Source: a virus. Taken from it: a DNA stretch of 20,447 bases. Below, one piece after another: positions 10,279 through 20,290 of the stretch. How positions within the stretch are numbered: the stretch's first letter is position 1; every line of letters starts with the position of its first letter. Both the position numbers and the translations under genes were made by a program. The stretch covers positions 1-20,447 of IMG/VR virus record IMGVR_UViG_3300048583_000022; one strand, given 5' to 3'. The notes under the pieces were generated by a model. That model was not told where the DNA came from and did no database searches. It saw only the letters and a program-made list of their open reading frames with translations.

Positions 10279-10728
10279 TTATAGTTTAAGTTCGTTAAAT
10301 CCCATGCCTGTCATGGGGTCATGCTTGCTAGCAATTTTTACAGCTTCCAATGGTGTTTTACCGCAGGTCATAGCGGCAATGGCATATGTCATACCACTGC
10401 CAATAGCCATGTACTTGTCTTCCACTTTAAGTAAAGAACGAAAATCGTTGCCATGATAGATTTCCTTGTTACTGGTAAGTAACAATATTTCAATTTCTTT
10501 AAGCTTAGGGAATTTCTTTGTTGGATTCCATAGCCACTCCACTGCTCGTTGCATAGGAATAGCATTGCCACAAAACCCTACAAGTACACGATCTGAGTTA
10601 AACACTGCTTTGCATGTTTCCTTAGGAACATCAAAGATTTTGGTTTTACCCATCATCTTCAATGCTCCCTGGTAGGTAAACTGGCGATCCCCCGCAATAC
10701 CTTCTTTATTAACGGCTACTGTTGTCAT
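10279..10728 (-). CDS. Proteasome/HslV-like N-terminal threonine peptidase family protein
   Basis: The 149-residue product begins MTTVAVNKEGIAGDRQ, closely matching the start of HslV (TTIVAV...AGDGQ). After removal of Met the first residue would be the Thr nucleophile. Asp14 (AGDRQ) and Lys30 (KTKIF) occupy the places of the conserved Asp17 and Lys33 of mature HslV. Residues about 110-121 (IGSGMTYAIAAM) match the HslV GSGGNYALAAA helix. The end (SKHDPMTGMGF) resembles phage members of the family. Such Ntn-hydrolase proteins occur in several phages, with no settled function. No HslU-type ATPase is visible here, so it may act alone or with a host unfoldase. It overlaps the LAGLIDADG gene by 20 bases and is the last intact gene of the operon. 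Confidence 0.75.
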   Translation of the reverse strand: MTTVAVNKEGIAGDRQFTYQGALKMMGKTKIFDVPKETCKAVFNSDRVLVGFCGNAIPMQRAVEWLWNPTKKFPKLKEIEILLLTSNKEIYHGNDFRSLLKVEDKYMAIGSGMTYAIAAMTCGKTPLEAVKIASKHDPMTGMGFNELKL

Positions 10729-11077
10729 TGGTTACAAATGGAGAATCAATTGTTGTTTCCATAATGTAGTCGATGCGGGCTTTCCGACGACTACACATTA
10801 GCGGGTATACATGATGCATAATGTTTCGGGCTTTTGGACCATATGCATCAAAGCGGAAACGGTCTTTATGAGATTCTTTTTTACTCTTATATGGCCCGCG
10901 TTTGTTTCCAAAAGGAAACACATGTTTAAGTCTGTCAATTACATCTTCGTCCGTGCTGTCAACCAGTACATAAGGATGTAAAGTTTTCCCCTTATGTAAC
11001 GTAAAGCACCCTTCACCTTCAATTAGCCCAGCAGCCCAAGCAAGTTCAAGTGGATTATACAATTTCGCAAGCCCCAT
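10709..11077 (-). CDS. LAGLIDADG homing endonuclease (single motif)
   Basis: The 122-residue product carries LAWAAGLIEGEGCF at residues 13-26, a direct match to the LAGLIDADG helix plus GEGxF strand, with Glu as the acidic catalytic residue. Further family traits are VLVDSTDEDVIDRLKHVF at about 37-54, a basic strand region (RGPYKSKKESHKDRFRF) and a C-terminal helix ending RRKARIDYI. With one motif it would act as a dimer. It overlaps the end of the reductase gene by 23 bases and the start of the peptidase gene by 20 bases, so it is stitched between two essential-looking genes without loss of either. It is a free-standing gene rather than intron-borne, as no intron core was seen around it. Confidence 0.8.
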   Translation of the reverse strand: MGLAKLYNPLELAWAAGLIEGEGCFTLHKGKTLHPYVLVDSTDEDVIDRLKHVFPFGNKRGPYKSKKESHKDRFRFDAYGPKARNIMHHVYPLMCSRRKARIDYIMETTIDSPFVTNDNSSR

Positions 11078-14256: not shown

Positions 14257-15010
14257 ATTTTTTCCTTAAATAATCAAGACTGATGGGCATAAGGTCAAAT
14301 TCACCATCGTTGACTTCGTGTAGCATGAGACAACCACGCCAATGCTTGTTGCCTTGGGGTCCCATGTAGTCTTCATTGTGGGTGTAACAACTTCCAGCGA
14401 TAATAGACGTAAGCCTCTTACCATCGGCCCTGTGTCCTGTAGCAATTTGCAGTCCTTGTTGATGCCCCGCAATGCAACTCATATGCTTCTTAGTTAGCTG
14501 TGCTGCTGCTGTGGTGCAGGGTCTGCCCATAACGCCTGTAGTGAAGTAATGGCTATATGCAATGCCGTCAATGACAACAACATCTAAGAACGGGTGGACT
14601 TCCCATCCGTACTCTTGGTAACGTAAGTCTCCAATACCAATGGTTCCATCCAGCTTAGGGTCTTGATTGGTAACTTTGTTAATTCTATTACAGTGGTTAC
14701 CTAGCAGCATAATTTTTTCTGGATTGTAAGTTTCTTTTTTACTTTTCCGTGCTTTAAAATTATACTCGTTAATTGGGGCTAGCAAAGTATCCATAGCGGC
14801 GTGTGTCGCCTCAATGTCGGCTTTATAGCGCCGCCCTTCAAAAGATTTAGTTCCCACATCATAGCTGGACAGACTTGGCATGTCGGCGAAATCCCCTAAA
14901 CAAATTACTTTGTCTGGTTTTTTTGCTACAATATATTTACCAATGTCAGATAAAAATGTAAAATCGTTTCCAGGCTTTGCCTGAACATCAGGAATTATAA
15001 AGTGACGCAT
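14240..15010 (-). CDS. Calcineurin-like metallophosphoesterase
   Basis: From ATG 15010 the protein is 256 residues and begins MRHFIIPDVQ, placing Asp8 and Gln10 in the first metal motif (usually DxH; here DxQ). Then come GDFAD at 39-43 and GNH at 104-106, with the late histidine motifs SHYF and AGHQQG. These are the ordered metal ligands of the binuclear metallophosphatase fold, which hydrolyses phosphodiesters or nucleotides. A GTG at 15028 would add six residues but places the DVQ motif abnormally far in. The first 23 bases overlap the end of the HNH-type gene 14988-15389. Members are common in phage replication operons; substrate is unknown. Confidence 0.85.
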   Translation of the reverse strand: MRHFIIPDVQAKPGNDFTFLSDIGKYIVAKKPDKVICLGDFADMPSLSSYDVGTKSFEGRRYKADIEATHAAMDTLLAPINEYNFKARKSKKETYNPEKIMLLGNHCNRINKVTNQDPKLDGTIGIGDLRYQEYGWEVHPFLDVVVIDGIAYSHYFTTGVMGRPCTTAAAQLTKKHMSCIAGHQQGLQIATGHRADGKRLTSIIAGSCYTHNEDYMGPQGNKHWRGCLMLHEVNDGEFDLMPISLDYLRKKYDKSS

Positions 15011-15389
15011 GTCTATTATGTGCCCCACGGCGAGAATTTTCTGAATGCGTAACCCATTCCATATTGTCTAATGAGTATCCACTAGACGAATCAATTCTAT
15101 CTACAGATGGGGTTAGCTTACGTTCATAACCAGATTGTTCCCATTTGGTAAATAAAGAATAAAAGGTGGGGTCATTCATTGCCCAGCAATAAAACTCTTC
15201 TCTTGCTAGTAAATTCAAACCATTATATAAATGGGCTTTAGTCCGCTGAACACCTTCAATACGGGATTGCATGTTTCTATACAAACGCATAAGAAATCCT
15301 CGATGAGTTTTCTCATACTTTTTTGTATAAGCATTATTGTTATTTTTTCGCCTTTGCCTCTGATCTGCTAATCGTTCTTCTTTAGTCAT
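14988..15389 (-). CDS. HNH-type homing endonuclease, DRIDxSxGY subclass
   Basis: The 133-residue product has a basic Asn/Lys-rich N-terminus (RQRRKNNNNAYTKKYEKTHR), a helical middle, and a nuclease core at about 93-122: PSVDRIDSSSGYSLDNMEWV then THSENSRRG. The DRIDxSxGYxxxN plus TxxxNxxRG pattern is typical of a free-standing phage HNH subclass. Its start follows AGGAG closely and overlaps the upstream small gene by eight bases; its C-terminal codons overlap the phosphoesterase start by 23 bases. It shares the DRIDSS-GY motif with the partial gene at the right end of the window. It is likely a mobile gene. Confidence 0.75.
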   Translation of the reverse strand: MTKEERLADQRQRRKNNNNAYTKKYEKTHRGFLMRLYRNMQSRIEGVQRTKAHLYNGLNLLAREEFYCWAMNDPTFYSLFTKWEQSGYERKLTPSVDRIDSSSGYSLDNMEWVTHSENSRRGAHNRHASLYNS

Positions 15390-15570
15390 TAAGCTCCTGC
15401 TTTTCCTCTGCCTCCTCTACTTGCTTCATAAGCTGCTGTGTGCTAATGCCGGCAGCAACAAGGAAGTTTAGAGCAAACTGTAGAAGCACTTGGACTTCAT
15501 TGGCAGAAAGTGTTTGGTGGTATTGAATACTTCCATCGCCATTAAATACTGGTACATCGATAATTTTCAT
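15382..15570 (-). CDS. Small conserved phage protein (62 aa)
   Basis: The product starts MKIIDVPVFNGDGSIQYHQT, a beta-type N-terminus, followed by a hydrophobic helix VQVLLQFALNFLVAAG and a charged tail (QQLMKQVEEAEEKQELND). Proteins with this MKIIDVPVFN...GSI...QTLS start are common in marine and freshwater podovirus genomes; no function is known to me. The helix could be membrane-associated or part of an oligomer. The stop of the upstream HNH gene overlaps its ATG by four bases. It is bracketed by two endonuclease genes. Confidence 0.7.
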   Translation of the reverse strand: MKIIDVPVFNGDGSIQYHQTLSANEVQVLLQFALNFLVAAGISTQQLMKQVEEAEEKQELND

Positions 15571-15986
15571 TTCTTATTTTCTTCTTTTGTTGTCGCTTTT
15601 TCAGCTCGACTTTTCTTTTTATGACATGGCTTGCACAGGGTTTGGAAGTTGTCTCGCTCTGTAAACAACCGCTCAATGAACGTATTCCAATCTACGAATC
15701 CAACCTTAGGATCAACCACAGGGATAATGTGGTCTACTTCCACGTCTTTGTTCGTGAACTCCTGCTGGCATTTGGCACACTTATAGAACTGTGCCAAACG
15801 CCCAGAGGCTGGATTAATACGCTTCTCTGTTTTGGACTCGTTAAGACATTCAAACTTGGGCGGCCATTTCCTACTGCCATACCGTAAGGTTGTTGTGATG
15901 AATCCACGAATACGTCCTTCAGTCCACTGCAAGGATAGTTTTCCAATTGTCCTGGGGCTTACGCCAGATATAAATACATTGTGCAT
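15567..15986 (-). CDS. HNH endonuclease with zinc-binding Cys pairs
   Basis: The 139-residue frame opens at ATG 15986; a TTG at 15932, just before QWTEGRIRGF, may be the true start because the longer form shares 68 bases with the exonuclease gene. The HNH core has Cys70/Cys73 (YKCAKCQQEF), VDHIIPV with Asp85-His86, Asn113 in DNFQTLC, and Cys118/Cys121-His122 (LCKPCHKKKS), all needed for metal binding and catalysis. The N-terminal WTEGRIRGFITTTLRYGSRKW is basic and probably binds DNA. It could be a homing enzyme or a resident phage nuclease (for example in recombination or packaging); the conserved context after the exonuclease leaves this open. Confidence 0.8.
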   Translation of the reverse strand: MHNVFISGVSPRTIGKLSLQWTEGRIRGFITTTLRYGSRKWPPKFECLNESKTEKRINPASGRLAQFYKCAKCQQEFTNKDVEVDHIIPVVDPKVGFVDWNTFIERLFTERDNFQTLCKPCHKKKSRAEKATTKEENKK

Positions 15987-17710: not shown

Positions 17711-18248
17711 TTAAATCTCCTTTAGTTGGCCCTTGCTTGGGCCGACAGATACTTCACACAACATAGGTAGTTTAAATTTGTACCTATAAATATTATAACA
17801 CAGTTCTGGTACTTTTGCAACACTCTCTCGCAAGAGTTGAGAGGTTGCTTCTACGTTAGCCGTGGGCACGTCATACACAAGGCTGTCATGCACCGTAGCA
17901 ATGAATTCTCCCTCCATACCCGATGCTTTAAACCTGTTAAATGCTTCAATGCGAGCAAGCTTAACGAGATCAGCGCCGAAACCTTGGATGGGGTAGTTCT
18001 TGATTTGGGTTATCGGCCACTTGGGGTGCCCCCTAAACGTCTTGGACTCCCACTTGTAGAACCTACCGCTGGGAATCTCCAGCATGCCGGTTTCTTTAAC
18101 TTGTTTGATGTCCCTCTCATGTCCTTTAGCAATCCCTGTGTACTTGCCATAAAACGTGTCAATGACCTTCTGCCATTGCCGCTCGGAGTACCCTACGTGA
18201 CTAAAGTCCGGGTCTTGAGCATAGCCATAGGCAGAGGAGCCATAAATT
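17711..18248 (-). CDS. Family A DNA polymerase, exon 2 (fingers and palm end)
   Basis: After the intron the polymerase frame resumes with IYGSSAYGYAQDPDF, the second half of motif B, and continues SERQWQKVIDTFYGKY, LEIPSGRFYKWE, KNYPIQGFGADLVKLARI and motif C as TVHDSLVYDVP, ending GQLKEI. Motif C normally reads HDE; here the acidic third residue is Ser. Joined to 18944-19113 at the predicted splice site the frame is continuous (708 bases, 235 residues plus stop), which supports the junction. The enzyme copies phage DNA. In unspliced RNA this region could only be read from internal starts such as ATG 18085, which lacks motif B. Confidence 0.9.
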
Positions 18249-18943
18249 CCTTGTTGTTAGCTGTATATTCCTATACAGAGCAGACTATATCATCATCCCG
18301 TGGGGATGGAGTGCGCTTCGAGTTGTTGTCAACCCTACTCTCTTTCGAGATAGTCGTTACACTTTCAAAAGCTTTCCAACATTTGTGTTCAATTTGATGA
18401 CACTGCTTACATAACAATACTAGATTCTCAATAGTATTGTTTGTTTGATTGTGGTCTTTGTGATGTCCCACCCACTCGTAATGAGTGGCGTGTTTTATGT
18501 TTTTACCACAATGTTCACATAAGCCTATAGTAAGTTTACGTTCTTTCGCCCATCTACGAAAGACAGATCGGCCGTTAACGTAATTACTTGCTTCAGCCCC
18601 TAATTTACTTCCAGAACCAGTTCCTTTAAACTTCCCGGTTTTAATAAACCACTTTTTAACAGACTGTTTTGCTACAAGTTTTGTAAAAATAGGTTTACAT
18701 ACAGGGCAATATTTAGAACATGATCCAGTGGGCTGGTACTGAGTACCACATTGAACACATTGTTTTTCTTTAAGTTCACGCATAAACACCTCCTATTAAT
18801 GGTACATCTATGATACCAGATTTTATTGAGGATGTCAAGTTGAACTTAAAACTCTTGCTTAGCTCGGGATTGTCCGTTCTGGAGTTCCCCCGAATTCACA
18901 CTCTTCACATCATTAAATTGCTTTAATGAGGGCCTATTTATTA
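18249..18943 (-). ncRNA. Group I intron in the DNA polymerase gene
   Basis: The 695-base insert interrupts motif B between IFNFK-L and IYGSS. Group I core elements are visible on the - strand: Q-like GACAATCCCGAGCTAAGC (18857-18874) whose CCCGA can pair with upstream TCGGG; R-like AACGACTATC (GACTAT, 18350-18355) pairing exactly with ATAGTC of GATGATATAGTC (18283-18288) as P7; and a 7-base-pair P9-type hairpin with a GGAA loop (18261-18278). The exon ends in T, able to form the P1 U-G pair (GCT with GGC at 18932-18934), and the intron ends in G. Splicing gives AAG CTA ATT TAT GGC (K L I Y G), restoring the polymerase. The boundary could shift by one base. Confidence 0.88.
18271..18783 (-). 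CDS. Intron-encoded HNH homing endonuclease
   Basis: The start is ATG 18783 behind AGGAGG at five-base spacing (a GTG two codons earlier is possible), giving 170 residues. An N-terminal zinc-ribbon-like part (CVQCGTQY, then CSKYCPVCK) precedes a basic linker and the HNH core: GLCEHCGKNIKH, GHHKDHNQTNNTIENLVLL, CKQCHQIEHK. It should nick or cut intronless polymerase alleles and so spread the intron. The reading frame continues through both strands of intron helix P7 and stops (TAG 18271-18273) in the loop of the P9-type hairpin, so its last 35 or so codons also serve as ribozyme core. Confidence 0.88.
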   Translation of the reverse strand: MRELKEKQCVQCGTQYQPTGSCSKYCPVCKPIFTKLVAKQSVKKWFIKTGKFKGTGSGSKLGAEASNYVNGRSVFRRWAKERKLTIGLCEHCGKNIKHATHYEWVGHHKDHNQTNNTIENLVLLCKQCHQIEHKCWKAFESVTTISKESRVDNNSKRTPSPRDDDIVCSV

Positions 18944-19113
18944 AGCTTAAAGTTAAAAATCTTAGCGATGAGTCTACTGGGTAGGTTGAATGCAGTTTGG
19001 TTATTCTGGTGAATGTCTTCTTTATTCAGCAGTTCCTTCTGCAAAACCTTGTCGTCATACCAGTCTGCTGCTACATAAATCTCAAGGCTTTTTACGTCAC
19101 AGTTGACAATCAT
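18944..19113 (-). CDS. Family A DNA polymerase, exon 1 end (motif A to motif B)
   Basis: From ATG 19113 this frame reads MIVNCDVKSLEIYVAADWYD, which is polymerase motif A (DVKSLE in place of the usual DYSQIE, with the metal-binding Asp kept), then NKEDIHQNNQTAFNLPSRLI and AKIFNFK up to the intron. It lies one frame away from the upstream exonuclease-containing part, which stops at 19097 after LLISRYDCQL. Either a small indel has split the gene, or the polymerase is naturally made as two chains with this ATG starting the catalytic one. Its coding capacity after splicing is 235 residues (with 17711-18248). No well-spaced ribosome binding site precedes the ATG. Confidence 0.8.
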
Positions 19114-20290
19114 ACCTACTTATCAACAAATTATCTACATTCTCGTCTGTGTTTTGCAGGTTGGGCTTACTGCTACTTAGCCTGCCAGTGACTACTGTGT
19201 TTTGGTTAAACTGCCCGTGGATAAACCCATTCCATTGTTGCTCCTCGTTAATTTTAATAAACGATTCAATCATTTCACATGCTTTAGCTTTTACGGACAA
19301 CGCCGTAAGCGCAGCCAGTAAAGCTTGCTGCTCTTTGGTTTTAGCTTTGAGAGACAACAGCGTCGGAGCGTCTGTTTGATAATAACGTACTTTAGCGGTT
19401 GGGTTGCCCTTAGTTTTTGCAACCTCTTTCTCCGGGTCTGGTGTAAAGTACCCAAGAAAGCACACATGCTTCTCATGCCAGGTGTTTTTCGTGTAAGCTT
19501 GGCCCAACTTTGCGCCTGATTTGTATATCGCTGGCGCAGATATCGCATAGTCATATGTTATGGTTCCACCATATAGTAGGGCACTAAGTTGGTCCCCACT
19601 GTTCCAATTAAAATCCGTGGCCTCAGAAGGAACAAACTCATTCAGAGTCTGTTTGATGGTTGCTACCTCAGTTTGCAAAGCTGAAACTGTATTAATCGCT
19701 TGTGCAACATCGAACTTCATACCAGCATACTCAGCAGCTTGCAGAGTTTTTAGGTCTTCTCCTTCCAGATACACAAGAGCTTTCTGTTTTTCATCCAACA
19801 TGTTTTGTTCAATGAGAAACAACGGGTATGTTGCGTCTACTACATCATGTGTATTGTACTCTTCGACAATCGGGACTGGAATATTTTCCGTACTAATACC
19901 TTGCTTCCAGTATTCCCGTACAAGGTCCGGTTTACGCGGCAGTCCATAGCGTTCGCACGCAGCGTCAAGGCTGTCGTATGGTAGTTGTTGTCCCGATGCA
20001 ATGAATTCAGCTAGCTGCACATCCCAGATTTTTACATGGGAGGGGATAACAATGCCAATACGCCTAGCCCAGTGGAGATCGAACTTAATAGCAAAACCGC
20101 ATATAACAGCACACCCGTCCACTGATTGTTGTAGGTGACTCCTAAAATCAGGGTCAGTATAGTACATAAAGCGGCGCTGATTGTTAAGTAAAGTAACATA
20201 ACTCACCAAAAAATTACGGGAGTCGAATGGACTCCCTTTGTTGTAAATAGATGTTTCAACGTCAAATACGAGAATATTATTTTGTGTCAC
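19097..20290 (-). CDS. Family A DNA polymerase N-terminal part: 3'-5' exonuclease and thumb
   Basis: The 397-residue frame starts at GTG 20290 (encoded TQNNILVFDVETS follows) and overlaps the upstream gene by 14 bases. It has all three proofreading motifs: DVE (Asp10, Glu12), KFDLHW (Asp71) and Y145-x3-D149 (YNTHD). A helical thumb region follows, then VVTGRLSSSKPNLQN (from about 366), the start of the polymerase domain. The normal continuation into motif A is lost: after LLISRY the frame runs into DCQL and TGA, whereas the expected MIVNCDVKSLE follows in another frame (see 18944-19113). Full-length homologues carry both domains on one chain. Proofreading should be intact in this fragment. 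Confidence 0.88.
   Translation of the reverse strand: MTQNNILVFDVETSIYNKGSPFDSRNFLVSYVTLLNNQRRFMYYTDPDFRSHLQQSVDGCAVICGFAIKFDLHWARRIGIVIPSHVKIWDVQLAEFIASGQQLPYDSLDAACERYGLPRKPDLVREYWKQGISTENIPVPIVEEYNTHDVVDATYPLFLIEQNMLDEKQKALVYLEGEDLKTLQAAEYAGMKFDVAQAINTVSALQTEVATIKQTLNEFVPSEATDFNWNSGDQLSALLYGGTITYDYAISAPAIYKSGAKLGQAYTKNTWHEKHVCFLGYFTPDPEKEVAKTKGNPTAKVRYYQTDAPTLLSLKAKTKEQQALLAALTALSVKAKACEMIESFIKINEEQQWNGFIHGQFNQNTVVTGRLSSSKPNLQNTDENVDNLLISRYDCQL

Follow-up and report, generated by a model that had tools for sequence, protein, structure and literature searches.

Layout of the polymerase locus and content of its two chains

The window analyzed here is a 20,447-bp virus fragment from IMG/VR (linear, a partial record), in which the DNA polymerase locus lies on the minus strand. 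The first gene (nt. 19097–20290) begins with a GTG start codon and encodes a protein of 397 a.a. (the N chain) comprising a 3′-5′ exonuclease, a thumb, and the first part of the palm (TGRLSSSKPNLQN). The second gene encodes the C chain and begins at an ATG (nt. 19113) located 14 nt ahead of the TGA stop codon of the N-chain gene, such that the two genes overlap by 17 nt (nt. 19097–19113). An in-frame stop occurs two codons before this ATG, and a weak Shine-Dalgarno-like stretch lies one base upstream. From nt. 19113 to 18944, the C-chain ORF runs open, corresponding to a first exon (nt. 18944–19113) that extends from motif A (MIVNCDVKSLE) to motif B (RLIAKIFNFKL). Reading on from this segment stops inside a group I intron of 695 nt (nt. 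18249–18943), which is located within motif B codon 764 (E. coli Pol I numbering) and encloses an HNH ORF (nt. 18271–18783). The second exon (nt. 17711–18248) encodes the remaining fingers and palm, including motif C (VHDS), and joining the two exons gives an ORF of 236 codons (235 a.a. and a stop). All of these features are on the minus strand.

A sequence-only reading of the locus had described the frame as shifting by a net one base immediately ahead of motif A, to which the gene overlap (nt. 19113/19097) corresponds, and had proposed an exonuclease-thumb chain and a palm-fingers chain. The separate ORFs bear out this division, except that the N chain does not end directly after the thumb but runs on past the palm start, and thus also holds part of the palm.

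Both chains matched PF00476 above cut-off, the N chain over profile positions 55–131 and the C chain over positions 154–378. The model of the N chain aligned to residues 313–648 of Bst Pol I (Z 19.2, 322 residues, 3.6 Å), and the C-chain model of a relative, L016, to residues 648–876 (Z 24.8, 217 residues, 1.9 Å). Together, the two chains tile Bst Pol I with no residues missing at the seam, a loss that the sequence-only reading had considered, and the seam itself falls just ahead of the first beta strand of motif A. The L016 C chain was predicted alone with a pLDDT of 94.6. The N-chain prediction was good except for the palm piece (residues 361–380 and 391–397, pLDDT 54–65), as expected if this piece packs on the partner chain. 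The complementary halves are thus placed as separate neighboring genes with nothing missing between them.

The N chain carries the exonuclease residues D10, E12, D71, and D149, invariant in 28 sequences, as well as the primer-grip motifs; the TGRL/PN.QN motif on this chain was likewise invariant. Motifs A, B, and C are all on the C chain, where D6, E11, R47, K51, H178, and D179 (L016 numbering) are invariant, the HD pair being motif C; the motif residues there also include Y59 and G60. With the motifs divided in this way, neither chain holds a complete polymerase site. Based on the sequence match, the motifs, and the predicted Pol I fold, we assigned the locus as a family A DNA polymerase. Family A polymerases are usually one polypeptide, whereas the window and all of its clade relatives have two ORFs; given that the fold and motifs are complete over the two chains, we did not hold a single polypeptide to be defining for the family.

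The intron in motif B

In a 1.1-kb search, Rfam RF00028 matched both ends of the 695-nt insert (E-values of 1.1e-6 and 7.4e-4), and no Rfam match reached gathering level over the window, since the HNH ORF interrupts the core between the two matched halves. We tested eleven frame-keeping joins near the site, each with a U closing exon 1 and a G closing the intron, of which only 18944/18248 restores the Rx3Kx7YG motif (RLIAKIFNFKLIYG). The length and junction given for this intron by the sequence-only reading were therefore exact. The joined exons match the intron-less relatives L016, L010, L009, and L013 (FKLLYG) in codon number across the site. Within the same polymerase group, introns at this site were found in about ten further contigs, and that of the nearest relative, L176, passes the RF00028 gathering level (58 bits). 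In an alignment of nine intron cores (the window and eight relatives), 476 of 504 pair cells were kept (94%), with compensatory changes at 20 of the 56 pairs and P7 strands invariant in sequence. Read from the sequence, the P1 helix (GCU|U...AGGC, nt. 18932–18946) has a U-G pair at the 5′ splice site, and a P10 is possible between AUAAAU (nt. 18941–18936) and AUUUAU in exon 2 (nt. 18247–18242).

P1 in the window is homologous to that of the relatives but short (about 4 pairs, compared to six in L014 and L118), which could point to a decaying gene whose intron cannot splice and whose C chain is no longer made. We consider this highly unlikely, given that the exons are open, the catalytic residues and the HNH ORF are intact, the P3, P4, P5, P8, and P9 pairs of the intron are intact, and a C-chain search of the window, itself a partial record, found no other polymerase gene. 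These comparisons support the insert as a group I intron, a ribozyme that most likely removes itself, and the catalytic chain should therefore come only from spliced RNA.

The HNH ORF encodes 170 a.a., with a PF01844 match above cut-off and a match to phrog_25862 (1.5e-25). AGGAGG ahead of its ATG offers a good ribosome-binding site, and the 3′ end of the ORF runs into the ribozyme core. From the HNH domain and its location, we assigned it as an intron-borne homing endonuclease with putative cleavage activity. Group I introns with HNH genes have been described in the polymerase genes of phages SPO1, Pf-WMP3, phiL7, phiI, and W31 (PMC3428280). The window resembles these in its group I core, the HNH gene inside, and the targeting of a conserved catalytic motif; however, the published sites are 674, 676, and 881 (E. 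coli numbering; PMC3428280), and that in the window is 763/764, in motif B. As introns are also found at this same motif-B site in the fused polymerases of Acinetobacter, Xanthomonas, Klebsiella, and Aeromonas phages, it is an established intron target unrelated to the split.

We did note some related elements elsewhere. The introns of L180, L181, and L183 share the motif-B site and the HNH family but have a visibly different core, while in L169 (MZ997840) an intron at the Walker A motif of the primase-helicase gene shares 3′ core sequence with the window intron. The minus strand of the window also contains three further nuclease-like ORFs (nt. 10709–11077, which contains AAGLIEGEG, nt. 14988–15389, and nt. 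15567–15986), which PHROGs and Pfam place in the HNH or endonuclease VII type and which adjoin ribonucleotide reductase, phosphoesterase, and 5′-3′ exonuclease genes. Counting the intron HNH, there are at least four nuclease-like genes in the 20-kb window.

The split and its history across relatives

We surveyed the locus in IMG/VR and phage records using alignment queries and profiles built from split sequences. The alignment queries found relatives, where a single-sequence search of viral contigs found none. Both halves were present at 160 loci (138 distinct N genes), and all 160 were split into two ORFs, a figure that describes this clade only, as the profiles came from split sequences; fused polymerases were seen only among more distant phages. 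The split occurs in the named phages most closely related to the window, MW202796 (six genes and 3.6 kb between the halves), MW202697, OK172329, and OP830906; complete phage genomes with the split include ct2os315 (six intervening genes) and Alcaligenes QDWS535. Separate N-type and C-type polymerase families are also held in PHROGs, and split annotations therefore exist elsewhere.

The sequence-only reading had left open whether the break at nt. 19113 is natural or instead reflects a sequencing or assembly error within one ordinary intron-bearing gene. The window is from a metagenomic contig, and a one-base change would account for the break locally; moreover, a one-base break occurs inside the palm gene of one relative, L003. 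Yet the identical seam is found in 138 distinct loci, in all three frames and with gaps of up to 3.6 kb, and recurs in many assemblies and several complete genomes, with the exact 17-nt overlap of the window present at seven other distinct loci. An error is thus so improbable as to be negligible, and the comparison with relatives confirms the split as a real, natural gene arrangement. As for L003 (MW202697), its frame break (L003:5055-5300) lies after motif A in the C-chain gene, which is intact in relatives and is annotated in L003 as starting at MYGG.

Across the 138 distinct loci, the spacing between halves ranged from −17 to +3598 nt, and their relative frames were near-random (53/44/41). 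A C-chain start codon near motif A was found at 129 of these loci (ATG in 124, GTG or TTG in 5), with none found by script in the other 9. The halves overlap at 22 loci, some having small overlaps other than that of the window. The overlap of the window ORFs in a +1 relation could allow programmed ribosomal frameshifting to fuse the two into one chain, a reading we regard as very unlikely: one shift would serve the overlaps of −17, −14, and −11, but those of −4 and −1 call for the other; at most loci the halves are separated by stops and 29–3598 nt; and no conserved slippery site was seen on inspection by eye.

The DNA between the halves consists of unrelated small ORFs of many kinds, or there is none. 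An HNH-type ORF is present at the seam in about 10 loci (ICP2, L093, and L178 among them), and the ICP2 record joins the halves around its HNH gene. Both would suit a split that is itself a spliced intron or its remnant, as was suspected for MEP401 (PMC10580990) and is implied by the ICP2 annotation. However, Rostov-5342, a relative of ICP2, has no HNH gene and is still split; no group I match was found at the seam in nine loci, whereas the motif-B intron of the L118 control was recovered; and C-chain genes generally begin with a start codon of their own. Where the halves overlap there is no room for a seam intron, and we consider such an intron extremely unlikely. Error, frameshifting, and a seam intron were each rejected, then, on the recurrence of the split, its mixed frames and gaps, and the lack of an Rfam match at the seam.

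No homing endonuclease is present at the seam of the window itself. In L178, precisely the interval separating the two polymerase genes (L178:2420-3350) is occupied by a free-standing HNH gene and a methylase-like ORF; this HNH is of the same family as that of the window intron (53% identical), without the tail, which the window copy translates from ribozyme core. L171 combines an HNH-type ORF at the split seam with an HNH-bearing intron in motif B. The HNH genes at seams and the free-standing L178 copy suggest a role for homing endonucleases in the fission, and stop short of demonstrating an HNH gene as the maker of the split.

Two trees were used, a careful one of 29 concatenated sequences, from which support was taken, and a quick one of 70 rows. 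The main split clade was supported at 100/100 in the former and at 99 in the latter. The intron, present in eight rows, needed eight changes, indicating that it came and went while the split stayed. From these trees, the split is old, fixed, and clade-wide, and the intron a scattered later arrival, such that the locus is best described as a family A polymerase in a conserved two-gene form, into which a mobile intron has entered. The sequence-only reading had the gene interrupted twice; both breaks are real but are separate events, one old and shared by the clade and the other later and scattered. The seam arrangements (overlap or gap) are labile by parsimony, with 16 changes and no firm ancestral state.

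Vibrio phage ICP2 and Rostov-5342 (L006/L007) have two ORFs as in the window, with an HNH gene between them in ICP2, but their seam lies roughly 10–15 residues upstream of that in the window, the N chain ending in PNLQNISN, and ICP2 groups with fused polymerases on the tree. One origin for all splits was disfavored (AU p 0.0105, for a group that was named after seeing the tree), and the ICP2/Rostov-5342 split is probably a second, independent event.

A probable two-chain polymerase with a nested intron

A split polymerase in this group is already on record: a 2023 paper described it in MEP401-type phages, and its authors suspected an intron but did not settle the matter (PMC10580990). The OM43 phages of the MEP401/MEP402 type (a Zobellviridae subfamily) are split in the same place, into an exonuclease-plus-N-terminal-polymerase gene and a C-terminal polymerase gene (PMC10580990). 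In our comparison, which covered the polymerase genes, the window and MEP401-type polymerases are homologous along both chains (44% in the C chain), but MEP401-type phages have a small ORF between the halves where the window has a 17-nt gene overlap and an intron in the C-chain gene. The passages found of a 2024 phage polymerase survey contain no mention of split polymerases (PMC11348598).

Other essential replication enzymes are known in two polypeptides, namely gp43A/43B, the family B polymerase in Aeromonas phages 25 and 44RR, and the NrdA of phage Aeh1 (PMC2988022), and, as in the group studied here, some members have homing endonucleases at the seam (PMC2988022). The gp43A/43B split is in a family B enzyme and known from few phages, whereas that of the window is in family A, with one split common to a whole large clade. 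For Aeromonas phage 25, gp43A and gp43B were found to co-purify and to be active (PMC2988022), a precedent by which the two chains described here may likewise assemble.

Our favored interpretation, to which we give a probability of roughly 0.87, is a two-gene family A polymerase that assembles from two chains, with an HNH-bearing group I intron in the C-chain gene; two-chain translation, assembly, splicing, and homing we infer from the sequence. The two adjacent genes would encode a Pol I-type replicative polymerase and be carried on one transcript, with the chains most likely made in succession via the overlapping genes, probably by re-initiation. The N chain would supply the thumb, the exonuclease for proofreading, and the initial, primer-binding part of the palm, and the C chain motifs A, B, and C, and so both catalytic aspartates, together with the fingers; self-removal of the ribozyme would be required before this catalytic chain exists. 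The two chains most likely fold into one working enzyme, and either half alone would not polymerize. It is possible, though we think it rather unlikely, that the whole clade has an obligate two-chain polymerase with a divided palm in which the split is kept as useful, for example through a free N-chain exonuclease or through chain ratio or splicing timing the catalytic enzyme.

What these comparisons add is that the split is clade-wide, ancestral, complete in residues, and not caused by an intron, and that several members carry the motif-B intron in their second polymerase gene. This argues against the suggestion of an intron at the seam (PMC10580990) and for an old gene fission in this clade. 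In these phages, nature would provide a testable example of a Pol I-type replicase with two subunits, the exonuclease on one chain and the catalytic site on the other, which may be useful for asking how a cut polymerase palm still works and for engineering split polymerases. The mobile intron nested within the second gene suggests that selfish elements keep targeting this same enzyme at a different, conserved point.
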